Below, piece after piece: positions 5,366 through 15,199 of a stretch of DNA of 30,101 nt. Under the pieces are notes generated by a model. That model searched no databases. It was not told where the DNA came from and saw nothing but the letters and a program-made list of their open reading frames with translations. Each line of letters starts with the position of its first letter. Within the stretch, counting starts at the first letter, position 1. The position numbers and the translations under genes were made by a program. The stretch is from a virus, in the IMG/VR virus record IMGVR_UViG_3300025301_000073, positions 1-30,101 of that record; one strand, 5' to 3'.

Positions 5366-5625
5366 GTTTGATAGACCGCGATATGGACGGCCAAACGTGG
5401 TTTGGATTTAAGGCCGGTCACTCGTGTGCTGTGGTTACATTCGGGACACCGTGTCCACCGGGACTTCCGGCCATCCAGGGAGGTCTGGACTTCAATCGCC
5501 CCGGTGACAGGAAAGCCGCCATTGGCGCACAATATCCTTAGTCGCCCCCGCTTGTCGTAGCTCTCGACCGTCCGCCCTTTCTTAGTTTTCCACGGCCAGA
5601 TCAGTCCCAGCATTCGCGACCTCAC
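5362..5625 (-). CDS. Small basic zinc-ribbon-like protein between the terminase genes
   Basis: This 87 aa, strongly basic protein has RILCANGG near residue 33 and RCPECNHS near 60, a partial zinc ribbon with three visible cysteines. GTG at 5623-5625 is chosen because GGAGGGAGAAC lies directly upstream. The in-frame ATG at 5611-5613 is too far from that site. The gene overlaps the end of TerS by 44 bp and joins TerL by GTGA. Its position suggests a packaging or nucleic-acid-binding accessory, but no family is recognised. Confidence 0.7.
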   Translation of the reverse strand: MRSRMLGLIWPWKTKKGRTVESYDKRGRLRILCANGGFPVTGAIEVQTSLDGRKSRWTRCPECNHSTRVTGLKSKPRLAVHIAVYQT

Positions 5626-6076
5626 GTTCTCCCTCCACTATCTGGCCGGCGCCGTCCATCGCTTCCCGGAGGAGGTCCGCGAAGGTGACGCCGCCAACCA
5701 TGACGTTCTGTTGTTGGAGTTGGATCAAAGGCTTCTCCGGTATCAGTCCGCCGATGGTGTCCAGGCGCCGGAGAATGTCCAATACCATCTGGGTCGCCTT
5801 GGCCGCTCTCTCATCATCGGGGCCGGTAGCCTGACTCCACCACCGGAGGAGGAGCCGTTCATACCTTGACCGCTGGAGGTTGTACTCTTGCTGGACGGCT
5901 TCCTTGTCGTCCCGGCGTACCTCGGACAGCCGGCGGTGGATGTCGTTGTGGACCTGGGTCTTGGACACGCCGACCTGTTCCGCGATGGCGGTCTCGGTCG
6001 CCCCGGCCATCTTCATCTGGAGGACTTGGGAGCGTCGATTCTCCGCCGCCAGGTTCTTGCCGTTATTCAAAGCCAC
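5582..6076 (-). CDS. terS: Terminase small subunit
   Basis: This is the DNA-recognition subunit of the packaging terminase. Residues about 10-52 form a helix-turn-helix (QMKMAGATETAIAEQVGVSK then TQVHNDIHRRL). A long charged helix follows (about 52-115), suited to oligomerisation, and the C-terminal segment (116-164) would contact the large subunit. The 164 aa length fits the family. The call rests on the HTH-plus-helix architecture and on its place directly before TerL, separated by one small gene. It starts 7 bp after the mom-like gene. Confidence 0.85.
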   Translation of the reverse strand: MALNNGKNLAAENRRSQVLQMKMAGATETAIAEQVGVSKTQVHNDIHRRLSEVRRDDKEAVQQEYNLQRSRYERLLLRWWSQATGPDDERAAKATQMVLDILRRLDTIGGLIPEKPLIQLQQQNVMVGGVTFADLLREAMDGAGQIVEGEREVANAGTDLAVEN

Positions 6077-6083
6077 GACTCAG

Positions 6084-6815
6084 TCACTCCAGCAATCGGG
6101 CCATACGGTCCCGTAATGGGAATAAGTTCTGGAGCGTCCGGGTCGGTGCTGCCCCGCCCTCTCCGGCATGGATAGCCGGTGGTTCGCTGGAATCCTTCGG
6201 ACGCTTGGGATATGGTTTGGAAAGGGAAGCTATCTGCTCTTTCATGGAGTCATCAAGTGGGTACAGATAACGGTATTTCCCTTCCAACGGAATCGCTATA
6301 CAGTCCCTGACCTTCGGGACATGGGTCATAACTCCAAACTGCCGAGCATATCCCGATGCAGTCACTTGCCTATCTCGATACCGCCGACCATCTGCGCTAA
6401 TATAATCATTCTTGCTTGAGGTCTTTCCACAATACATCCAGCCCGCACCTTGATAAATGCCCCCATGATGCCCCTCGTTGGTGTCCGCAAAGGATACAAT
6501 AAGCCGAAGCCCGGATTCCTTTCTTCGTAACATCGCAACAGCAATAGTCAGGATACGTGACACTGGGACTATATGAGCAGTTATAGCGACCCTAGTTAAC
6601 TCTGCAACTTCCGTTTGCTGCAACCCATAAGCCGCCCCCAGATGCGGACTAGCCCCACGGGCAAAAACTACGCATCCAATAAATTGGTCACACTCCCACA
6701 CCCCAATTCTAATTGTTGGCGGCATCGGCATGCTCTTGGAATAGTGCCAATGTTCCACCGCATACTTGGCAGCAGCGTGGGAACACCAATCGAGTTTAAG
6801 GTCTGCCTTGTTCAC
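6084..6815 (-). CDS. mom: Mom-family DNA base modification protein (GNAT fold)
   Basis: It resembles phage Mu Mom, a GNAT-fold enzyme that adds a carbamoylmethyl (acetamido) group to N6 of adenine and makes phage DNA resistant to many restriction enzymes. Visible family features are HWHYSKSMP (22-30), IGVWECDQFIGCVVFARGA (37-55), ELTRVAI (72-78), PVSRIL with S86, SFADTN with D111, and YQGAGW (121-126). The tail after about residue 195 is charged, proline-rich and probably disordered. The start is GTG (6813-6815), overlapping the ParB stop as GTGA with no ribosome site. Translation therefore probably depends on coupling, or on relief of the stem at 6792-6826. The gene is AT-richer than its surroundings: the line 6541-6600 has 27 G+C of 60. 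The chemical product cannot be predicted from sequence. Confidence 0.82.
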   Translation of the reverse strand: MNKADLKLDWCSHAAAKYAVEHWHYSKSMPMPPTIRIGVWECDQFIGCVVFARGASPHLGAAYGLQQTEVAELTRVAITAHIVPVSRILTIAVAMLRRKESGLRLIVSFADTNEGHHGGIYQGAGWMYCGKTSSKNDYISADGRRYRDRQVTASGYARQFGVMTHVPKVRDCIAIPLEGKYRYLYPLDDSMKEQIASLSKPYPKRPKDSSEPPAIHAGEGGAAPTRTLQNLFPLRDRMARLLE

Positions 6816-6826
6816 AGCGCAAACTC
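6792..6826 (-). promoter_or_regulatory. Candidate stem-loop over the mom start codon
   Basis: Arms GAGTTT (minus strand, 6826-6821) and AAACTC (6797-6792) are perfect complements. They enclose the GTG start (6813-6815) and a smaller AAGG-CAGA-CCTT hairpin. No Shine-Dalgarno site is present. In Mu, mom translation is blocked by an RNA structure that Com opens, so this may be an analogous element. A six-pair stem can occur by chance. Confidence 0.35.
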
Positions 6827-7318
6827 ATGTCCACACTCTGGGCATTCAATCGGTTTCTTTTCATCCAACCGCCCTTGGTCATCAATACTGCCGGGTTCAA
6901 AGTCCGGCATAACGTCCCGTTCCCCGTTAGCCAATGCCTCCAGCATATCGTTGACCGCTTGGGACTCGAACTGGGTGTCGCGTAGTAGGTGGAGGAGTTG
7001 GTCCTGGTCGGCGTGGGCCATCATCGCCAGCGGGTCGTAAGTGAGGAGCATCTTGTCCGCTTCCTCCTCGGTTACGTCCACGATCAACACCGGGACGACT
7101 TGGTCGCCCATGACCTCTTGTCGGAGGTGGCCGTCGATAAGCTCCAGGCCGTCGTCGGTCTCCCTGGCGATGACCGCGTCCGCGAAGCCGATGTCCTCCA
7201 GGACTCCCCGGAGGGCGGCTTCCTGGGACGGTGGATGTCGGCGCCAGTTCTTGGGGTTGGCCCGGAGTTCGGACGCCGGTACGCGGCGGAGTTCCTTGAC
7301 GCGGTCTTTCATCGTCAT
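6812..7318 (-). CDS. ParB-like N-terminal domain protein with C-terminal CxxC
   Basis: Residues about 8-105 match the ParB/sulfiredoxin-like fold: VPASELRANPKNWRRHP, then GFADAVIARETDDGLELIDG and the conserved IDGHLR (61-66), then VPVLIVDVTEEEADKMLL. The C-terminus ends in ECPECGHEFAL, half a zinc ribbon. Phage proteins of this type are often found beside DNA methyltransferases or terminases and act as DNA-binding proteins, nucleases or CTPases. Which applies here is unclear. The ATG at 7316-7318 is chosen because the recognisable domain begins there. The frame stays open to a GTG at 7415-7417, but the extra 33 residues look unrelated to the family. No start has a convincing ribosome site. 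It overlaps mom by GTGA. Confidence 0.8.
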   Translation of the reverse strand: MTMKDRVKELRRVPASELRANPKNWRRHPPSQEAALRGVLEDIGFADAVIARETDDGLELIDGHLRQEVMGDQVVPVLIVDVTEEEADKMLLTYDPLAMMAHADQDQLLHLLRDTQFESQAVNDMLEALANGERDVMPDFEPGSIDDQGRLDEKKPIECPECGHEFAL

Positions 7319-7537
7319 ATCAATTTCATACCCGGACGCCTGACCAGATGTCGGATGGGCGACACCCAATAAGCCAAGCGCCCGGATCATTCCACCCTGT
7401 GACCGGTGAATGTCCACCCGTGGGTGGCGCCGTTATTCTACCACACCGCATATCGTGGACGGTCAGAACTACTGCCGGTGGTAGTAAAACGCCGCTATGG
7501 GCTTCTCTGAAGCGTCCAGGGCATATCCGCGGGAGGG
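7319..7537 (-). other. Non-coding gap upstream of the ParB-like gene
   Basis: This 219-base gap is the longest in the window if the ParB start is at 7318. It holds a weak promoter candidate at 7435-7443. It also holds several GGTGG/CCACC repeats in both orientations (around 7417-7430 and 7439-7492) that could form alternative hairpins. I see no tRNA and no convincing small ORF. Confidence 0.4.
7435..7443 (-). promoter_or_regulatory. Candidate extended -10 promoter for ParB-Mom-packaging genes
   Basis: The minus strand reads TGGTAGAAT, an extended -10 (TGn plus TAGAAT), about 115 bp upstream of the ParB ATG. No good -35 is visible at 16-18 bp. It would start a transcript for ParB, Mom, terminase and head genes. 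Confidence 0.25.
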
Positions 7538-7753
7538 TCAGACCTGGTCGATGGTATGCGCCCGACCTATCTTGAAGACCCGCTTGGACTTCTCCCGGAC
7601 GCAGTCCTGGCACTTGCGGCGGGTCCCCTTGTCCAGGGGCCGGGTGGTGGTCCATCGTTGGAGGTGGCAGACGGGGCACTCGGCCCAGATGTACAGCCGT
7701 CCGCCCACCATCCCCAGGTCTCGCGCTCGGCAGATGTCACCGATGTCAGGCAT
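7538..7753 (-). CDS. Small zinc-ribbon protein
   Basis: This 71 aa protein carries two CxxC pairs, AECPVCHLQRW (near 28-38) and RKCQDCVREKSKR (near 49-61), separated by a basic loop. It has the geometry of a zinc ribbon or zinc-finger nucleic-acid-binding protein. The ATG at 7751-7753 is chosen because GAGGGG lies six bases upstream and the start overlaps the upstream coding end by 8 bp. The partner is unknown. It is the first of several small CxxC proteins in the window. Confidence 0.72.
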   Translation of the reverse strand: MPDIGDICRARDLGMVGGRLYIWAECPVCHLQRWTTTRPLDKGTRRKCQDCVREKSKRVFKIGRAHTIDQV

Positions 7754-8081
7754 GATTGACCCCTCGTCGTTCTTTGGTCGATTGTGATCGGGACCATGTA
7801 CGTTTCCTGCAGGCCTCGTCGTGGTACTTTTGGCGTCCATGTGTAGGAGGAAAGTGTTCCCCGCATCCGACGCACTTCAATTTACCTTCCCGCTCCTCCC
7901 ACAATGTCAGGAGACGCCGTAGGCATTCCAGGTTGCAGAATCGTAGTCTCTGATACCCGGCCCGACTATTGTCGATGGTAACCACGATGCGGTCCTCCCT
8001 TCGGCTTCGGCGCCGGCAGTATCCACATTCCCAACTTTTAGGAACCGATCCATTCAACCCTTGTAACCACGGCAACGGCAT
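7746..8081 (-). CDS. Double zinc-finger protein of unknown function
   Basis: This is 111 aa starting MPLPWLQGLNGSVPKSWECG. The first finger is ECGYC...FCNLEC (residues about 18-54). The second is CVGCGEHFPPTHGRQKYHDE followed by AC (about 69-90), a CxxC...H...C treble-clef-like pattern seen in small phage and transposon DNA-binding proteins. The C-terminus is Arg/Lys-rich. The ATG at 8079-8081 has GGAGG at a good distance and overlaps the nuclease stop by one base (TGATG). The open frame continues upstream inside the nuclease gene, but that part is Pro/Arg-rich shadow sequence. I cannot name a function beyond probable DNA or RNA binding. Confidence 0.75.
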   Translation of the reverse strand: MPLPWLQGLNGSVPKSWECGYCRRRSRREDRIVVTIDNSRAGYQRLRFCNLECLRRLLTLWEEREGKLKCVGCGEHFPPTHGRQKYHDEACRKRTWSRSQSTKERRGVNHA

Positions 8082-8419
8082 CATTCCCCTCCCAATACCC
8101 GCTCGATCTCCCCGTCCAGGCCGTCCGGTCTCCAGAGGAAATATTCCACGCCGGGGCATTCCGAGAGGACTTGTCCCCATTCGTCTTGTCCTGGGAGCCA
8201 GCGGTTGCCGGACTTGTTCCACCGGCCCTTGGTCAATCGGCCCTTTACCGTCTTGAGTTCCGCGAAGATAACCCGGTGCTGGGTTGGATGCACCATCCGG
8301 AGGTCTGGCTCCCCCGGCTCGGACTTCCGGGCGTCATAGGTGAATCCCACGATCCAGCCATAAGTCCGGGCCAGGGCGATGACGGTCGCCTGGAAGTCCT
8401 TCTCGGTGATGAGTTGCAT
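8081..8419 (-). CDS. VRR-NUC domain nuclease
   Basis: This 112 aa PD-(D/E)xK nuclease is of the VRR-NUC family, found alone in phages and fused to FAN1 in eukaryotes, and thought to cut branched DNA. The core is GEPDLRMVHP (D39), then IFAELKTVKG with E54 and K56 as the ExK pair, then a Gln/Trp region (PGQDEWGQVL near 76-85). A helical N-terminus (TEKDFQATVIALARTYGW) leads into the core. Such nucleases usually sit next to an SNF2-type helicase in phage genomes. Here a methyltransferase lies between the two. The ATG overlaps the methyltransferase stop as TGATG. Confidence 0.9.
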   Translation of the reverse strand: MQLITEKDFQATVIALARTYGWIVGFTYDARKSEPGEPDLRMVHPTQHRVIFAELKTVKGRLTKGRWNKSGNRWLPGQDEWGQVLSECPGVEYFLWRPDGLDGEIERVLGGE

Positions 8420-9366
8420 CAGATATCCATAGAAAATGGCACATCCTCAACCCGCTCGATATGGAGTAGATTCTTTTGTGCCTGTCTAAAATAACTCGGC
8501 TTTAGTTCTACTCCGATGCCAAGACGCCCCAGTTGGACCGCTTCGTAAACTTCGGACCCGACTCCCATAAACGGCGTGAAGACCTTCTCACCTGGGTTTG
8601 ACCAAAGCGTAACGCACCGATTGATTACGTCTAATTGCAGGGGATGTATATGCTTTTCGTCCTGTTGGTCTCTTGCTTCGCGATAGGGCAGCACCCGGTC
8701 AAGACGTATGTCATCCCAGAACGCCGAGGCGTACTGCCGCCATATCCAATGAGAATATCGGTTCTCTATTTGGTTTCCCTCCATCCCTCTCAGATGGTGC
8801 AATTCGGCGGGTACTTGTCTCTCACCAACGTATTCAGTCAATCCCACCGGGTGAACGATCGGGACCGGATTCTCTCCATGCCGCCGAAATACCAGGAGGT
8901 AATCTGCTGAGGCCACGCTGCACCGGGACGAATCCTCAATCAAACTCCGATGAGCCAAGTTTTTAGCCATTGTCCGATTACGAACGGTCAGCGGTTCCTT
9001 CCAAACGTGGTAACGAGCGATGTACTCAAATCCGATGTCTTTGTGCAGTCGGATAATATCGCCAGGAAAGTCCTTCAGAACGTCAACTCCGGTATTACCC
9101 GATGGGACGTCCATGCAATGCACCGCGGTCATTCGCCCCGGCATAGTTAGGCGGAATAATTCCTGCACCACAAATCGGTAATGCTCAAAAAATTCCTCAT
9201 AATTACGGCAGTTCGATAGATCATTTTCAGAGGACGAATAGTGATAGAGTCCGGCAAAGGGAGGCGAATATACTGATAGGTGGATGGACTCACTAGGCAA
9301 GGTGGGCATCACCTCGCAACAGTCACCCAGATAAATAGCATATTGGTCTGTGATCTCTTGATTCAT
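8419..9366 (-). CDS. Beta-class DNA methyltransferase (N4-cytosine or N6-adenine)
   Basis: The enzyme transfers a methyl group from S-adenosylmethionine to an exocyclic amino group of C or A. The catalytic motif IV, VYSPPFAGLY (SPPF at 34-37), comes first, followed by a long target-recognition region. The SAM motif I/II region comes last (FTPFMGVGSEVYEAVQ, then GIGVELKPSYF). This IV-TRD-I order defines the beta class. SPPF is common in N4-cytosine enzymes, but base choice cannot be settled. No cognate restriction enzyme is nearby. ATG at 9364-9366 overlaps the helicase stop (TAATG), and an ATG nine bases upstream (9375) is equally possible. The DNA is AT-rich for this window: 9181-9240 has 21 G+C of 60. 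Confidence 0.92.
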   Translation of the reverse strand: MNQEITDQYAIYLGDCCEVMPTLPSESIHLSVYSPPFAGLYHYSSSENDLSNCRNYEEFFEHYRFVVQELFRLTMPGRMTAVHCMDVPSGNTGVDVLKDFPGDIIRLHKDIGFEYIARYHVWKEPLTVRNRTMAKNLAHRSLIEDSSRCSVASADYLLVFRRHGENPVPIVHPVGLTEYVGERQVPAELHHLRGMEGNQIENRYSHWIWRQYASAFWDDIRLDRVLPYREARDQQDEKHIHPLQLDVINRCVTLWSNPGEKVFTPFMGVGSEVYEAVQLGRLGIGVELKPSYFRQAQKNLLHIERVEDVPFSMDI

Positions 9367-10766
9367 TACAACCATGACGGGATTGACACCTCCTCCTCAT
9401 ACTCTTGGCTACGCTTGACCGATAATGCGTCATTCATATACTGAACTAAATCTGAGAACATCTTGTCGGCAGCCTTGGATTTCCGGGCCAAGTTTTCTAC
9501 GATACGTTCGTCCGCGTCAGTACTAACGAGGTTGACCATCACCGGACTTTCCTGGCCGAATCGCCAGCATCGGCGGATCGCTTGATAATATTGCTCATAA
9601 GAATGTGATGGGAAGTAGGTCATATGGGCGCAATGTTGCCAGTTCAACCCAAAGGCTCCGATCTTGGGCTTGGTGATCAAGACCCGGATATTACCCTCTT
9701 GAAAGTCTCGGAATTTGGATTCCTTCACATCGTCCGAGTCAGACCCAGCCACTTGAACCGAACCCGGCACCATCGCCTTTAACGTATTCCCCTCGTCGTT
9801 CAAATGGCACCACATAACGGCGGGACGGGTTGTCTCGTTCACGCTTGACGCAGCGGCTTCGCACCGCTCATTTATAGTCCTTCGCCGCGCTTCCCGCTCG
9901 TCTTGTAATCCCACCGCTGCAACATCAAATAACATACCCTGTTTGACCGTTTTGGCCGCTACCACCGTTTCCTGAATATCCAAAGGCGGCAATTCAAAAC
10001 CCTGGTCATCGAAGCCTAAATCAGATGGTCGGCGGATTGCCCTTGCCCAGGAACTTACCCACCTCCAAAAGGATTGCTCGGCGTGGTGCTTGAATCGCCA
10101 TCCTCCACCATCCCAGAATCGGTTGGGGGCCGTCGTGTTTTGGTCATTTATGAAAAACTGGTTGAGCATATCAACGTAACCTAATTCCCCCAGCGCCTCA
10201 GAACTCGTCCCAAGTTCTATGTAGTCGTTCGGAGCGGCGGTGGCCGTACAAAGCAATCGATACGGCACCTTACGCATGAAGTCGGTAATTAGCGCTTTAC
10301 GCTGACCGTCAAAGGATTTTAAGATGCTGGATTCATCGCAGACGACTCCGTCAAAATCGGAGGGCGAGAAGTGATGCAACCGCTCATAATTCGTGACGGT
10401 TATCCCACATCCATGACTGCCATCTATAGATCGGGATACTTCGATGCCAAACTTCTCACCCTCAGATATTGTCTGATGCGATACGGCCAGCGGAGTTATC
10501 ACCAATACCGGCTTATTGGTTTCCCGGATTATGTTTTCTGCCCATACCAACTGCATTGGCGTCTTCCCCAGTCCGCAATCTGCGAATATACCGGACCGGC
10601 CCTTTTTAAGAGACCATTCCAGCAAGGCTTTCTGGAAGTCAAACAAGAAGTCTGGGAGATACGACCCCGCGAATCCGTGTAGTATCCCCGCCTGCCGTTT
10701 TGTATCTAAAAACCGTTTGTACTCAATCGTATCTTCTGCAATCATTCCAGGCATATACTCCTTCAT
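9366..10766 (-). CDS. SNF2-type DEAD-box helicase
   Basis: This superfamily 2 ATPase/translocase has 466 aa. Visible motifs are Walker A ADCGLGKT (GLGKT 65-69), motif II VVCDESSILK (DESS 144-147), motif III TATAAPND (174-181) and motif VI YQAIRRCWRFGQ (395-405). It is a stand-alone phage SNF2 helicase of the kind often paired with VRR-NUC, probably acting in replication, recombination or DNA remodelling. The ATG at 10764-10766 overlaps the upstream stop (ATGA). AAGGAG occurs just inside the gene, so ATG at 10752-10754 or 10743-10745 could also start it. The gene is AT-richer than its neighbours and, with the methyltransferase, looks like a recently acquired block. Confidence 0.93.
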   Translation of the reverse strand: MKEYMPGMIAEDTIEYKRFLDTKRQAGILHGFAGSYLPDFLFDFQKALLEWSLKKGRSGIFADCGLGKTPMQLVWAENIIRETNKPVLVITPLAVSHQTISEGEKFGIEVSRSIDGSHGCGITVTNYERLHHFSPSDFDGVVCDESSILKSFDGQRKALITDFMRKVPYRLLCTATAAPNDYIELGTSSEALGELGYVDMLNQFFINDQNTTAPNRFWDGGGWRFKHHAEQSFWRWVSSWARAIRRPSDLGFDDQGFELPPLDIQETVVAAKTVKQGMLFDVAAVGLQDEREARRRTINERCEAAASSVNETTRPAVMWCHLNDEGNTLKAMVPGSVQVAGSDSDDVKESKFRDFQEGNIRVLITKPKIGAFGLNWQHCAHMTYFPSHSYEQYYQAIRRCWRFGQESPVMVNLVSTDADERIVENLARKSKAADKMFSDLVQYMNDALSVKRSQEYEEEVSIPSWL

Positions 10767-11008
10767 GCCAGGATCAGGTCCGCCGGTATCCGGGCGATCT
10801 CGGACTCGTCCAACTTGAGGGCTTTCGCCAACGCCGACCTTATCTTGTCCCGGAGCGGTTGGGTCACCGGGCCGTCCAGCGGCAGAGGGCCGACCAACTC
10901 GACCAGGTGACAATGCCAGCGTTGTCCCGTCCGGGCGCCGTAGACCCGCCAGGTGAAGCCGTTCACCTCCACCTGGACGCGGGTCGTCTTTTGGTCATGA
11001 CCGGGCAT
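10763..11008 (-). CDS. Small conserved-looking protein upstream of the helicase
   Basis: This is 81 aa starting MPGHDQKTTRVQVEVNGFTW, with a beta-like N-terminal half (VQVEVNGFTWRVYGARTG, then HCHLVEL) and a helical C-terminus (RDKIRSALAKALKLDESEIA). No family is recognised. The ATG at 11006-11008 overlaps the preceding stop as TGATG, which decides the start. The longer open frame to 11191 is Pro/Arg-rich and overlaps another gene. Confidence 0.65.
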   Translation of the reverse strand: MPGHDQKTTRVQVEVNGFTWRVYGARTGQRWHCHLVELVGPLPLDGPVTQPLRDKIRSALAKALKLDESEIARIPADLILA

Positions 11009-11265
11009 CAGCGGCAGACCTCGTCGGGTCGGGCGCCCCGGACGAAGCCGTGGCGGTTCTCCAGGAGGAGTCCGCCATCCTGGAATACCCGGAGGACTCT
11101 CGTCGCGGCCCCATGCCAGCACCCGCCAAGTTCGGGCGCGGTGATGGCTGGGGCTTGGAGGCCCGATTCCTTGTCTGGATTGCAGACGCACCGGATGCCA
11201 TCGGCGCCGCTCGGGAAGGGCTTCAAGTGGACATTTTGTCCAACCTCGTAGTCTGGGATTATCAT
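11008..11265 (-). CDS. Small Cys-containing protein
   Basis: This 85 aa protein has a strong ribosome site: AGGAGG six bases before the ATG at 11263-11265. It has scattered cysteines (IRCVCNPD, GGCWHG, EVCR) that could bind metal but form no standard ribbon. The motif TRVLRVFQDGGLLLENRHGF suggests a small beta domain. Function unknown. Coupled to the next gene by TGATG. Confidence 0.65.
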   Translation of the reverse strand: MIIPDYEVGQNVHLKPFPSGADGIRCVCNPDKESGLQAPAITAPELGGCWHGAATRVLRVFQDGGLLLENRHGFVRGARPDEVCR

Positions 11266-11276
11266 GGTTTACCTCC

Positions 11277-11456
11277 TCAGAATCCCGGCATCCGGGGACG
11301 GTCCTCCAGGTCGGCCTCGATGTCCGGCGGTGCCGCTTCCCAATACCCGCATGGGCAGACCAAAAACAGGACCGGCGTGTCGTGCGGGTCCCGGCGTAAC
11401 AGCTCGACGGTCATCTCGCCGCCGCATTCGGGACAGGTCCGGCGGATGGTAGTCAT
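11277..11456 (-). CDS. Small zinc-ribbon protein (59 aa)
   Basis: The peptide starts MTTIRRTCPECGGEMTVELL and continues with VCPCGYWE, a two-knuckle zinc ribbon (CPEC...CPCG). An acidic tail follows (DIEADLEDRP). The ATG (11454-11456) overlaps the loader gene stop as ATGA. Its own stop (TGA, 11277-11279) is embedded in the ribosome site of the next gene, so the pair is tightly coupled. Probably nucleic-acid or protein binding; target unknown. Confidence 0.72.
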   Translation of the reverse strand: MTTIRRTCPECGGEMTVELLRRDPHDTPVLFLVCPCGYWEAAPPDIEADLEDRPRMPGF

Positions 11457-12307
11457 GCTCGATAGTCCTCCGCGGTGTTGATCACGACCGACACCTCCGG
11501 GAGTTCCGGGTTGCCGGCATATAACCGGGACGCCAGACGGTCGCCCATCCGGTCGGACATCGCCGCCTTGTTGAGATTGGTCGCCAAGACCATCCAGCCG
11601 CCGGAGTTATGCCGTTCCTGGACTAACGTCGTCAGTTGCTCTCGCGCCCAGTCGGTCGTGGACTCCATGCCGATGTCGTCCAGGAGAACGGTGTCCCGGC
11701 GTTGATACCACGCCATCAGGTCGTGGAGATCGTCCCCGGAGTCGGAATCGTAGGTGTGCCGAAGCCGGTTTAGAAATCTTGGACTCAGGTCGTAACGGAC
11801 GGTCCGCCCGGATTCCAGGGCTTGGCGTCCGATGGATTCCAGGAGGTGGGATTTACCCGTCCCGGTCTGGCCCACCAGTACCAACATCCTCGGCCCCTGT
11901 CGGTCGGCGAACTTTCGGGCCGCGGCCAGCATGTCGTCGGTGCCCGGACGGGCCCGGAAGTTTTCAAACGTCCTCGTTGTCCCGCCGGTCGGGAGCGCGG
12001 CCTGGGCGTGGCGAAGTTCTTCGTCCCGGCGTTGTTGTTCCTCCCGGCCCCGACATTTGCACTGGGCTTGCTGGAATATTCTCTTTGTCGGGTCACGGTC
12101 GAGAAGGATGCGCCGGACATCGGGATGGGTGATGTCGAAATACCCGCACACCGGACACTGGGAATCGTTGGGGAGCGGTTCGCCGGCAGACCGGACCCGT
12201 TTGAAGATGTCTCTCAGCGGTTCCATCGCGCCCGAGACCTTGACCGGCTTGGGGTAGGCGTGGAAGTCGGTGTCTCCCGGTTGGAGTACGTCGGGCGGTA
12301 TCGTCAT
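11453..12307 (-). CDS. DnaC/IstB-like AAA+ helicase loader
   Basis: This 284 aa ATPase probably loads the host replicative helicase (DnaB) at the phage origin. The N-terminus has a zinc site, QCPVCGYFD (51-54) and QCKCRG (83-85), as in phage DnaC-like loaders. The AAA+ core has Walker A GQTGTGKSHLL (146-156), Walker B TVLLDDIGME (206-215), sensor 1 LATNLN (241-246) and a basic RLASRLYAG region near the end for the arginine finger. It lies directly downstream of the replication initiator, the arrangement known from lambda O-P and from DnaD/DnaC-type phages. No phage DnaB helicase or primase is visible, which supports use of host enzymes. Confidence 0.92.
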   Translation of the reverse strand: MTIPPDVLQPGDTDFHAYPKPVKVSGAMEPLRDIFKRVRSAGEPLPNDSQCPVCGYFDITHPDVRRILLDRDPTKRIFQQAQCKCRGREEQQRRDEELRHAQAALPTGGTTRTFENFRARPGTDDMLAAARKFADRQGPRMLVLVGQTGTGKSHLLESIGRQALESGRTVRYDLSPRFLNRLRHTYDSDSGDDLHDLMAWYQRRDTVLLDDIGMESTTDWAREQLTTLVQERHNSGGWMVLATNLNKAAMSDRMGDRLASRLYAGNPELPEVSVVINTAEDYRA

Positions 12308-12310
12308 GGT

Positions 12311-13141
12311 TTATCCTCTCGCCTTCCGGGCGTCTTGCTCGGCCTTCATCGCCACGAAGTCCTGGGAGTTGACCGAGAAGACCTTGGATGGCGGACTCGA
12401 CCGCGGAGATATGGCATCCCTTCGCGCCCAGTTCTGGAATGTCGCCCACGGATCGCGGCCCTTATTTTTGGGTTGGGCGATAAATGCCTTAACTCCGTAA
12501 GCGGTGACCTCGGCCAGGTCGGCGGTTATGCCTTTCTTGGATAACCACGCCTCGGCGTCGGCCAGAGAGGTTGTAAACCTTGGGAGTCCTGATAAGACAT
12601 CGAACCAATCGGGCGATGGGTCCGACGGCAAGTCGGACATCTCCTCTGACGGTTCTTCTGATGATTCTTTGATGATTACTGATGGTTCGGGTGACATAGC
12701 TATGTCACCCTTTAGCGTCTCCGGTGTCACCCTTTGTGTCTCAGATGTCACCCTTTCCGCGTCCTGGGTGACACCCTTTATATCCGCCTCGCCGTCAATG
12801 GGTGTCATATTGTCACCCTTTATATCCGCCAATATCTGGCGTTCTGTTCTCGGTCGGAAGGGCGGTTTCTGCTTGCCGGCGGATGGGTCGAGTCTATAGA
12901 CGACGGTGTTATGCCGACCGCCAGCCACCGACCCGGTGGGGATCGCCAGCTTTTGGTCCCGGAGGTCTTTGAGGGTCCGCTGGACCTGGCGGACTCCGTA
13001 CCCCGTCTTCCACGCCAACCGGCCAACGCTTGGATAGCAATAACCGTCGTCGTCGGCGTGGTCTGCCAATGCCAGGAATATCGATTGGGCGTTATGCGGT
13101 AAATCCAGTTCCCAGACCTGGGACATTATCTTGACGCTCAT
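12311..13141 (-). CDS. Replication initiator (winged-helix, DnaD/lambda O-like layout)
   Basis: This 276 aa protein should recognise the phage origin. Residues about 8-85 form a helix-turn-helix/winged-helix domain of the type at the N-terminus of phage replisome organisers (MSQVWELDLPHNAQSIFLAL near 6-25, then GVRQVQRTLKDL and NTVVYRL). A low-complexity linker (about 105-185) rich in Thr, Glu, Pro and Ser follows. Its DNA contains the iterons at 12689-12830. The C-terminal helical part (about 190-276) includes WATFQNWARRD and could contact the loader. ATG at 13139-13141 has GGGAGGGGAGG upstream. Initiator-then-loader order and internal iterons match lambda O logic; homology to O itself is not claimed. 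Confidence 0.85.
   Translation of the reverse strand: MSVKIMSQVWELDLPHNAQSIFLALADHADDDGYCYPSVGRLAWKTGYGVRQVQRTLKDLRDQKLAIPTGSVAGGRHNTVVYRLDPSAGKQKPPFRPRTERQILADIKGDNMTPIDGEADIKGVTQDAERVTSETQRVTPETLKGDIAMSPEPSVIIKESSEEPSEEMSDLPSDPSPDWFDVLSGLPRFTTSLADAEAWLSKKGITADLAEVTAYGVKAFIAQPKNKGRDPWATFQNWARRDAISPRSSPPSKVFSVNSQDFVAMKAEQDARKARG
12645..12688. other. Low-GC repeat stretch beside the iterons (possible unwinding element)
   Basis: Directly next to the iteron palindrome the plus strand has repeated TCTGA/GATGATT words (TTCTTCTGATGATTC, then GATGATTACTGATGG). This is a local drop in GC inside a GC-rich gene, on the same side as the AT-rich segment of lambda-type origins relative to the iterons. 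Functional assignment is inference. Confidence 0.4.
12689..12830. repeat. Iteron cluster, candidate replication origin
   Basis: Within the initiator gene the 11-mer TGTCACCCTTT occurs at 12703, 12725, 12746 and 12811, with a one-mismatch copy (TGACACCCTTT) at 12769. Start-to-start spacings are 22, 21, 23 and 42 bp, about two helical turns. A perfect 22-bp palindrome with half-site GGGTGACATAG covers 12689-12710. A 17-bp direct repeat ending TTTATATCCGCC lies at 12772-12788 and 12814-12830. The inverse copy GGGTGTCA is at 12800-12807. Codons in the repeats encode a variable linker, so the DNA pattern appears to be what is selected. Confidence 0.8.
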
Positions 13142-13179
13142 CCCGTCGTCCTCCCCTCCCGTTAGATAACTCTCGGAGT

Positions 13180-13198
13180 GGGCCGATAAGCTCGGCCC
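13180..13198 (-). other. Perfect hairpin ahead of the initiator gene
   Basis: Seven-base arms GGGCCGA and TCGGCCC flank a five-base loop in the 71-bp gap between 13213 and the initiator start. There is no T tract, so it is not a typical terminator. It could be an RNA stabiliser, an attenuator or a protein site. Confidence 0.4.
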
Positions 13199-13212
13199 AG
13201 ACCGGCAATCGT

Positions 13213-13404
13213 CTAGCGTTCCGGCTTCTCGTCCCTCCGTCGCGCCCAGTCCTTGAGATATGCCTGGAAGTCGTCCACCACATCCTCGGAGCGGTCATAG
13301 TCCACAGCGGCCTGGTCGAGGATGTCGAACAACGCCAGCATCAGGTCGATGTGGTCGTCGAAGACGTAACCGGGCCGCGTGGACGTTCTAGCGTTGGCTT
13401 GCAT
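13213..13404 (-). CDS. Small acidic helical protein
   Basis: This 63 aa protein is rich in Asp and helical (DDHIDLMLALFDILDQ, then SEDVVDDFQAYLKDW) with a basic C-terminal tail (ARRRDEKPER). GGAGGG six bases before the ATG at 13402-13404 supports the start. The first 17 bp overlap the ssDNA-binding-like gene. No family recognised. Confidence 0.65.
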   Translation of the reverse strand: MQANARTSTRPGYVFDDHIDLMLALFDILDQAAVDYDRSEDVVDDFQAYLKDWARRRDEKPER

Positions 13405-14095
13405 CGAATACCCTCCAGCCTTCCCGATTCTCGACGCAGTACGAATCCTCCTCGTCGTCGCCCTGTTTCGGGAGTATGTGTCCCCAGTTGCCCGTCTTGC
13501 TTTGCCGCCGTTCCTGGTCGTGTTGGTAGCAGTAATGGAGCGGGGCCACCGGAGCCTGGTTGACGTTGCGATAAATCCAGTCCCGGCATTCTAGGAGCCA
13601 GGACGTATAATCACGGCCCTCCGGGACCGGCCAAATCTCGTACATAATCGCATCGTTGGCGTGATTCTGGCATTGGCCCAACGCCGCCGGGTTGGGAGGC
13701 GGTTCCATGTTGGGCGCCGGAGTCCGGGCCGGTGGCGCCGGGGCCGGGTTGGGTTTCGGCGGGGCTTGGACTGGCGGCGCCTCGTCGGACGCTACCCTCT
13801 CCCCATCTTCGGCGATCCATGTCGGCTCGATGGACACCATGTCCCAGAAGTAGTCGGTCGAATATCTGCCGTCTTTGTTGGCTTTGAGGTTGCCTTGATT
13901 GATGGTGATGATGGCGGTCTCGCCCACCTCAAAGCCCTGGACGGTCTCCCAGTCCTGACCGTATAGGGTCAAGTCGAACTTGGAGCCGGGGAGCTTCCAG
14001 TCCACCACCATCGCCCAGCCGTCCCGGTTCTGCTGTTTGCCCTTGGACTTCACCTCGGCGGTGAAGTGATATTGACTCTCGATGGCGGTGGTCAT
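13388..14095 (-). CDS. Putative OB-fold ssDNA-binding protein
   Basis: Of 235 aa, residues about 8-92 have the strand pattern of an OB fold: YHFTAEVKSKGKQ, WAMVVDWKLPGSKFDLTLYG, VGETAIITINQGN, then YFWDMVSIEP. A Pro/Ala-rich linker (about 105-135) follows, as in many single-stranded-DNA-binding proteins. The C-terminal third is unusual: Cys/His-containing (GQCQNHANDAIMYEIWP, LECRDWIYRN, LHYCYQHDQERR) and acidic (QGDDEEDSY), so it may hold a metal site. The position inside the replication module supports the call. No conserved SSB tip motif is seen, so the assignment is by fold impression and context only. Confidence 0.5.
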   Translation of the reverse strand: MTTAIESQYHFTAEVKSKGKQQNRDGWAMVVDWKLPGSKFDLTLYGQDWETVQGFEVGETAIITINQGNLKANKDGRYSTDYFWDMVSIEPTWIAEDGERVASDEAPPVQAPPKPNPAPAPPARTPAPNMEPPPNPAALGQCQNHANDAIMYEIWPVPEGRDYTSWLLECRDWIYRNVNQAPVAPLHYCYQHDQERRQSKTGNWGHILPKQGDDEEDSYCVENREGWRVFDASQR

Positions 14096-14541
14096 CTGAC
14101 CTCCCTCCGGGCGAACTTCAGCCGACCTCGACTCTCCATCCGGGCGTTCTCAACTATGCGGAGAGCTTCGGCACCGTACTTGACCGCCAGACTCTTGACG
14201 GTCGCGGTCGTCCATTTGTCCTCGATCTTGACCTCGTCGGTGTGGGCCGGAGTCAGGCATTTCTTGAGGTCAACTTCGTTGAAGATTTCCTTCAGCGGCC
14301 CGAAGGATGGCTGGTCGTATTTGAAGCCGGTCTCCATCTCGCAGATGTAAGTCTCGGACGGGATGGAGGTCGCTTTCTTCTCCTCCATCCGGCGATAGGC
14401 TTCTTGCTCCAGACGACCGAGGACGCCTTTAATGACCTCCAACTCCTCGCTGACCTTCTCCATCTCAGACAACAACGCATCATCCAAGAGGAAGTAATGG
14501 TCCGGTATAGCCTCGACCATTGCCCTTAATTCTTTGCCCAT
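14092..14541 (-). CDS. Coiled-coil protein of the replication/recombination module, unknown
   Basis: Of 149 aa, residues about 20-55 form a charged coiled coil (LLSEMEKVSEELEVIKGVLG, then RLEQEAYRRMEEKK). The C-terminal half is a compact domain with KYDQPSFGPLKEIFNEVD, VKIEDKWTTATVKSLA and KYGAEALRIVENAR. It ends ATGA-coupled to the OB-fold gene, so it probably works with ssDNA, but I do not recognise the family. A recombination mediator or host nuclease inhibitor would fit the location. That is speculation. Confidence 0.7.
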   Translation of the reverse strand: MGKELRAMVEAIPDHYFLLDDALLSEMEKVSEELEVIKGVLGRLEQEAYRRMEEKKATSIPSETYICEMETGFKYDQPSFGPLKEIFNEVDLKKCLTPAHTDEVKIEDKWTTATVKSLAVKYGAEALRIVENARMESRGRLKFARREVR

Positions 14542-14621
14542 GCGGTCCTCTCCTTCTGGGCGATGTACGCCGCGAGGGCTATCGCCAGGTCTTTAACTTT
14601 GACGATCGGCATCGTCTGCAT
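14526..14621 (-). CDS. 31-residue peptide gene
   Basis: The peptide starts MQTMPIVKVKDLAIALAAYI and ends QKERTAWAKN. AGGAGG lies seven bases upstream of the ATG (14619-14621), and the stop overlaps the next gene by 16 bp. The ribosome site and the way it fills the gap support real translation. It may be a small amphipathic regulator or a translational leader for the coiled-coil gene. Confidence 0.55.
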   Translation of the reverse strand: MQTMPIVKVKDLAIALAAYIAQKERTAWAKN

Positions 14622-14659
14622 AGTTCCACCTCCTGATATATCTCCGCTTTCCGATGCGG

Positions 14660-15199
14660 TCATTCGGGCAGTTTCTCCAGGATGGTCAGCCTTCCGTCCG
14701 CGTTACGTCCGCAAGTCTTCCAACCGGCCACCTTGAAGCAATACCCTGGATTGACGCTCTCGACTTTAGAATCCCAAACATAAGTAAATAGGCGGATTCC
14801 CGGCCACCGTTGCCATGCCAGTTCCTCGGCCTCAAGTATCAACTCGCTGGACAGGACTGGGCCTTCGTTCCGGAATACTGAACACATCAGACCCAATTGG
14901 TTGCCAAAATATGTGGACGTTTTCTCTCCAACCGCCAGACCGCGTTTGGTGCGGCGTTTATCAGGCCGCGCTAATTGTGATATGCGTTCTTCCGGAGCGC
15001 GGATGATGCGCCATGCCCATAATGCCTTGCAATCAACCGTCAAGAGAATCATCCGTTCACTGGGGCCAACGATGCCATTCCTGGCGTGGTCATGATGCAA
15101 TCGGTCTTGGGCTGAATAGTGGCGCCTGTATAGGGCCACAACTCTCGGGTCTGCCGCATGGCTTCCAATCCAATGCCCATTGATACCGAGGCCGGTCAT
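14660..15199 (-). CDS. Mom-like GNAT-fold protein, second copy type
   Basis: This 179 aa protein shares the layout of the Mom-family protein at 6084-6815. Both have an HYS motif near the N-terminus (YRRHYSAQD, 24-32), a strand with W near the middle (CKALWAWRII), a Ser-containing helix start (GPVLSSELILEA, 113-124, against PVSRILTIA in Mom), GIRLFTYV followed by an acidic residue (D143), and a closing PGYCFKVAGWKTCG (151-164, against GGIYQGAGWMYCG). It also has FRNEG (109-113), absent from Mom. I infer a GNAT-type acyl or amino transferase, possibly acting on DNA bases. ATG at 15197-15199 overlaps the upstream stop as ATGA, which sets the start. The open frame further upstream is a shadow. 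Confidence 0.6.
   Translation of the reverse strand: MTGLGINGHWIGSHAADPRVVALYRRHYSAQDRLHHDHARNGIVGPSERMILLTVDCKALWAWRIIRAPEERISQLARPDKRRTKRGLAVGEKTSTYFGNQLGLMCSVFRNEGPVLSSELILEAEELAWQRWPGIRLFTYVWDSKVESVNPGYCFKVAGWKTCGRNADGRLTILEKLPE

Follow-up and report, generated by a model that had tools for sequence, protein, structure and literature searches.

In a 30,101-base virus record (IMGVR_UViG_3300025301_000073; the whole stretch is hereafter the window, and its recognisable genes all lie on the minus strand) the mom gene contains in its 3' end a glycine tRNA (tRNA-Gly)-like element that recurs, with its glycine-charging positions conserved, beside nearly every mom gene of its clade. We propose, with a probability that we put at roughly 0.55, that throughout this phage Mom clade DNA is hypermodified with glycine drawn from a dedicated, non-decoding glycyl-tRNA encoded within mom itself, an aminoacyl-tRNA-dependent base modification specified by a ParB-Mom-tRNA cassette. 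The initial annotation of the window, which had paired Mom with a second protein (P0002) as related enzymes of one phage, mentioned neither the element in the mom open reading frame nor the genes for a helicase and a methyltransferase at 8419-10913. We think it probable that the window encodes two independent modification modules, one comprising ParB, Mom and the tRNA-like RNA, the other P0002, the helicase and the methyltransferase.

6084..6815, minus strand: mom gene, 243 amino acids, GTG start; encodes protein P0001 (6087-6815)
6130..6204, minus strand: tRNA-Gly-like cloverleaf of 75 nt within the 3' end of mom, identified by structure scan, covariance model, fold and family covariation
6168..6174, minus strand: anticodon loop UAUCCAU (anticodon UCC), with C35 and C36 present and A, not U, at position 33
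6130..6133, minus strand: discriminator U73 and encoded CCA end, from the structure scan

A tRNA-Gly-like element nested in mom

The window element has an acceptor stem of GCGTCCG/CGGACGC and an anticodon stem of CCGGC/GCCGG, and its minimum-energy fold is the cloverleaf. Within this cloverleaf it carries the complete glycine identity set described for bacterial tRNA-Gly (G1-C72, C2-G71, U73, C35 and C36; PMC9976931), and it lacks the features of a translating tRNA, with A8 in place of U8, A33 in place of U33 and a T-loop, GGCAGCA, without TTC. ARAGORN reported no tRNA in the window, presumably because of this T-loop, and Rfam none at the element, even at a permissive threshold. Across relatives, Rfam at its gathering threshold called a tRNA in just one of nine loci, and ARAGORN placed a tRNA-Gly in or beside some mom genes.

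A structure scan of mom 3' regions that was blind to the anticodon and did not use the D-arm located a cloverleaf where most mom genes end, including that of the window. The threshold was passed by 45 of 65 regions, 41 of the 65 having an NCC anticodon together with U73, as compared with 9 of 390 dinucleotide shuffles, none of which had NCC and U73. For a set of 25 elements, pairing holds in 91% of cells and covariation scores 0.52, as against 0.13 for shuffled and about 0.1 for slid alignments; the D-arm, unused by the scan, covaries too. Similar values (0.55 versus 0.14) were obtained for 66 distinct elements in an alignment fitted to the model.

A covariance model detected the element in 19 of 20 mom loci that had been kept out of model building, and in Salinibacter phage B2_17 and Arthrobacter phages Martha and Wyborn, besides Microbacterium phage Appa. 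In a control of 1.55 Mb of loci of the P0002 family its single match was an ordinary tRNA-Gly. The window element scored 78.5 bits (E = 4e-14), a value that is not independent, as a locus near-identical to the window's had helped to build the model. When viral contigs were scanned with the T-arm only, 77 elements were recovered, 72 of them with mom directly 5' on the same strand; two of the other five have mom nearby and three do not, two of these three lying near a contig end. At loci L306, L351, L314, L322 and L365 the element is found about 220 nt downstream of mom, or upstream of it, or no mom was found.

Across the elements, G1-C72, C2-G71, U73, C35 and C36 vary little or not at all (U73 in 25/25 and 77/77), and it is acceptor-stem positions 4-7, the anticodon stem and position 33 that vary, the last being A in 18, T in 18, G in 16 and C in 6 of 58 elements; T-loops are non-standard. 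As the fixed bases are those of the bacterial glycine identity set, we infer that the element is glycylated and supplies Mom. Furthermore, 9 of 32 loci have a mom reading frame that stops before or within the element, and each of the three frames is represented, so that selection acts on the RNA and not on the peptide.

The genes on either side of mom in the window are the following.

6812..7417, minus strand: ParB-like protein, directly upstream of mom and overlapping its start codon; matches phrog_620 and other ParB-like families
5582..6076, minus strand: helix-turn-helix protein (HTH_23, E = 7e-5), downstream of mom; from its position, a probable small terminase subunit

Of 61 testable loci, 57 have a ParB-like gene immediately upstream of mom, usually touching or overlapping it, and we therefore treat ParB-Mom-tRNA as the unit. 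The ParB-like protein ends with a CPECGHEF motif, both in the window (6812-7417) and in mom loci.

Mom and its proposed glycine donor

P0001 is a genuine Mom. It matches the Pfam Mom family (PF25680) with E = 2.1e-42 and 145.6 bits, against a curated cut-off of 27.1, and the PHROG Mom family (phrog_1384) with E = 2.9e-50. Its AlphaFold2 model (pLDDT 85) superimposes on Mu Mom (8bv8) with Z = 20.1 over 187 residues, Mu Mom outranking every other GNAT protein by a wide margin. Residue mapping equates S86 with Mu S124, D111 with Mu D149 and HYS 24-26 with Mu residues 58-60, so that the catalytic serine and aspartate positions are matched; the protein in 8bv8 is Mu Mom inactivated by changing S124 to alanine. 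The C-terminal residues 208-243, which are encoded by the tRNA-like element, are disordered in the model. P0001 differs from Mu Mom in belonging to a ParB-linked clade with a nested tRNA-Gly-like RNA, none being present in the Mu stretch searched.

The donor of Mom has been given as an acyl-coenzyme A (acyl-CoA) such as glycyl-CoA (PMC7824862), yet a full GNAT CoA loop is present in just 1 of 68 Mom proteins, which supports an RNA donor. We found no paper proposing glycyl-tRNA, tRNA-Gly or aminoacyl-tRNA in this role in the open-access literature, outside which settling papers may lie. In the route that we propose, the element RNA would be released from the mom transcript and charged with glycine by the host glycyl-tRNA synthetase, and Mom would use the resulting glycyl-RNA in place of acyl-CoA. 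The N6 amine of adenine would attack the glycyl ester, and a rearrangement would yield the known glycinamide (carbamoylmethyl) adenine, which blocks restriction enzymes. Having lost decoding features, the RNA would be excluded from translation, like the peptidoglycan tRNA-Gly species of Staphylococcus aureus. Those RNAs (PMC9976931) likewise serve a non-ribosomal transfer of glycine and have lost translation features; they differ in that their substrate is the cell wall, not DNA, and that they are separate tRNA genes, not nested in the gene of the enzyme. Judged from sequence, Mom thus probably draws its glycine from a dedicated glycyl-tRNA mimic.

A tRNA-Gly-like structure in mom has been described before, in ssrA islands of Dehalococcoides and a marine fosmid (McMurdie et al. 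2011, PMC3146451). As in the window, that structure has a DCC anticodon and is embedded in mom beside parB; the report covers 16 integration modules and one fosmid, and the portion of its text available to us contains no donor role or mechanism. The present analysis adds to it the spread across phage mom genes, the covariation, the specificity control and the link to glycine identity, and within the same open-access literature we found no earlier description of the breadth of the mom-tRNA pairing with the glycine identity set.

Several observations weigh against a dedicated glycyl donor. An encoded CCA is not universal (17/25 and 47/77 elements), and elements of set A5 were picked partly for their pairing and encoded CCA. 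The window element taken alone has a folding energy of just z = -2.0 relative to shuffles. In phage Appa the element (L209:5624-5698, minus strand) follows mom but on the opposite strand. The mom genes of Mu and of several more distant phages have no element nearby in the stretch searched, so that Mom as such needs no copy of its own; element-free Mom proteins would depend on host tRNA-Gly or on some other donor.

An alternative that we regard as unlikely is a role of the element in regulating or processing the mom messenger RNA. It could, for instance, be an RNase P site at which mom is cut apart from the terminase genes, or switch translation in the manner of Mu Com. It does overlap the coding end of mom ahead of the terminase genes, and Com controls Mu mom at the RNA level (PMC6483171). 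However, a processing mimic has no need of fixed C35, C36 and U73, which serve glycine charging; moreover, the stop codon and reading frame of mom vary with respect to the element, and the Appa element lies on the opposite strand, neither of which fits such a role.

Phages commonly integrate at tRNA genes, and the element could be what is left of an attachment site, or a tRNA gene taken from the host, and have no part in Mom chemistry. This we consider very improbable: the Dehalococcoides mom tRNA does sit in an integration module, although the attachment site there is ssrA (PMC3146451), but the cloverleaf is complete, with both halves present and covarying, the element is fixed beside mom (72/77), and a host-tRNA relic would keep the decoding features, whereas here T-loops are non-standard and U33 is not conserved.

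P0002 as a probable partner of DNA methyltransferases

The second module of the window consists of three separate genes.

14660..15199, minus strand: P0002, a 179-amino-acid GNAT-fold protein (14663-15199) of an unnamed HYS-FRNE family, phrog_24928; AlphaFold2 pLDDT 80
9366..10913, minus strand: SNF2/SF2-type helicase (phrog_62, E = 2.8e-60), relatives of which carry a P0002 domain inserted in the second RecA domain
8419..9375, minus strand: N6/N4-type DNA methyltransferase (PF01555, E = 1.3e-16), overlapping the helicase gene and fused to it in relatives

On its predicted structure, P0002 is a member of the GNAT superfamily: the model has the GNAT order of elements and reaches Z up to 12.9 to GNAT proteins. 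Its relatives (398 from viral and 39 from genome contigs) share invariant or near-invariant HYS, W63, G103, C106, FRN, S118, TY and GYCFKxAGW, with conservation of 0.98 for H27, 0.99 for Y28, 0.95 for S29 and 1.00 for S118. A full GNAT CoA loop, at FRNEGxG, is found in 24 of 116 family members as against 1 of 68 Mom proteins, a difference that points to different acyl donors.

Evidence for a link to methylation comes from gene architecture. At nine loci a helicase fused to a methyltransferase holds, within its second RecA domain, an in-frame insertion of a P0002 domain, so that GNAT domain, helicase and methyltransferase form one polypeptide. The site is identical in all nine loci, and the insertion may be one ancient event; the window's helicase has just a short loop at the aligned point. 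Two loci of one 130,935-base contig (L013 and L015) hold divergent copies of a C5 methyltransferase followed by a P0002-type domain in a single open reading frame. Methyltransferases are the commonest named neighbours of P0002 relatives (N6_N4_Mtase, 9/148), and at 17 of the 27 loci with a methyltransferase match it is fused to the P0002 relative or lies within 300 bases of it. In Paenibacillus phage Lily a P0002 relative, LILY_60 (L092:14968-15426), directly precedes annotated N6-adenine and cytosine DNA methyltransferase genes. One upstream neighbour of P0002 relatives matches HMUDK_hel, the helical domain of the 5-hydroxymethyldeoxyuridine DNA kinase, a DNA hypermodification enzyme.

Two points count against this association: 105 of 131 P0002 relatives have no matching methyltransferase in the fetched flanks, and in the window P0002 lies about 4 kb from the helicase and methyltransferase. 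Because the counts of nearby methyltransferases are modest (26/131), we rely on fusions, insertions and close adjacency. On this basis we infer that the P0002 family is an acyl-CoA-dependent partner of DNA methyltransferases, in which P0002, probably using acyl-CoA, would acylate a base or another target alongside a helicase-driven methyltransferase. A methylase-helicase dyad is known from phage P1 (DarB type, PMC5512222), where a SWI2/SNF2-type ATPase is likewise coupled to a DNA methyltransferase and is proposed to modify phage DNA against restriction. Here the methyltransferase is of the N6_N4_Mtase type, the helicase precedes it, the genes are separate in the window, and relatives of the helicase carry the inserted GNAT domain, an arrangement of which we found no earlier description in open-access sources.

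It is possible, though we doubt it, that the target of P0002 is not DNA but a protein, for instance host RNA polymerase or a restriction enzyme. Acetylation of host RNA polymerase is reported for phiKMV Rac and similar phage GNAT proteins (PMC7824862), and ordinary N-acetyltransferases match P0002 as well as Mom does; against this stand the insertion in a DNA helicase-methyltransferase, the C5 methyltransferase fusions and the rank of methyltransferases as the commonest named neighbours.

The initial annotation had proposed that P0001 and P0002, which do lie at the stated coordinates and are both on the minus strand, are two Mom-fold enzymes, and much of its comparison holds. The motifs occur in the same order in both (P0001/P0002): HYS 24-26/27-29, a serine at the start of helix 3 (S86/S118), GLRL...SFAD/GIRL...TYVWD and AGWxxCG 124-130/158-164. 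In the models they fall at equivalent elements, namely the end of helix 1, the start of helix 3 and just before strand 6. The predicted structures share the GNAT core, the absence of which the annotation had named as its own refutation, and a DNA-modification context applies to both proteins. As judged from the models, the two are thus relatives within the GNAT superfamily.

A closer kinship is suggested, not proved. Sequence similarity exceeds chance weakly: BLASTP aligns the proteins with E = 0.009 in a single comparison, and the family profiles match with P = 0.0067 and a probability of 5.7%; when Mom profiles were column-shuffled 200 times, the best scored 22.6 as against 23.5 observed, and global profile alignment gave no match. 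P0002 has no match in Pfam, no Mom appearing at E <= 1, and in PHROG falls in the unnamed phrog_24928 and not in phrog_1384. Foldseek alone returned no PDB or viral match at E <= 0.001, Mu Mom being seen in a second-look alignment, where it ranks second (Z = 12.1) but tied with ordinary GNAT proteins, unrelated ones scoring 10.7-12.9. At the position of Mu D149, P0002 has W, and its relatives have mostly N or D, also W or F. By Pfam and PHROG P0002 is not a Mom, and its reading as a second Mom is not supported.

The further proposal that the two form a Mom pair building one two-step or two-base modification has in its favour the common GNAT fold, HYS motif, helix-3 serine and AGW block. We nevertheless hold it to be very unlikely, given the exclusion of P0002 from both Mom families, its variable residue at the D149 position, the location of the genes in separate genome modules, and the co-occurrence of the families in just 1 of 50 phage records, which is itself another contig of the same phage. 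Phages with several Mom proteins have been described before, PA5oct having five (PMC7824862). Mom and P0002 are two separate systems, and we found no evidence of a two-step Mom pathway.

The P0002 family is a candidate for a new and widespread GNAT partner of phage DNA methyltransferases. For Mom, a nested RNA with conserved glycine-charging positions makes the question of the donor directly testable, and, if our proposal is true, aminoacyl-tRNA chemistry would enter DNA modification.

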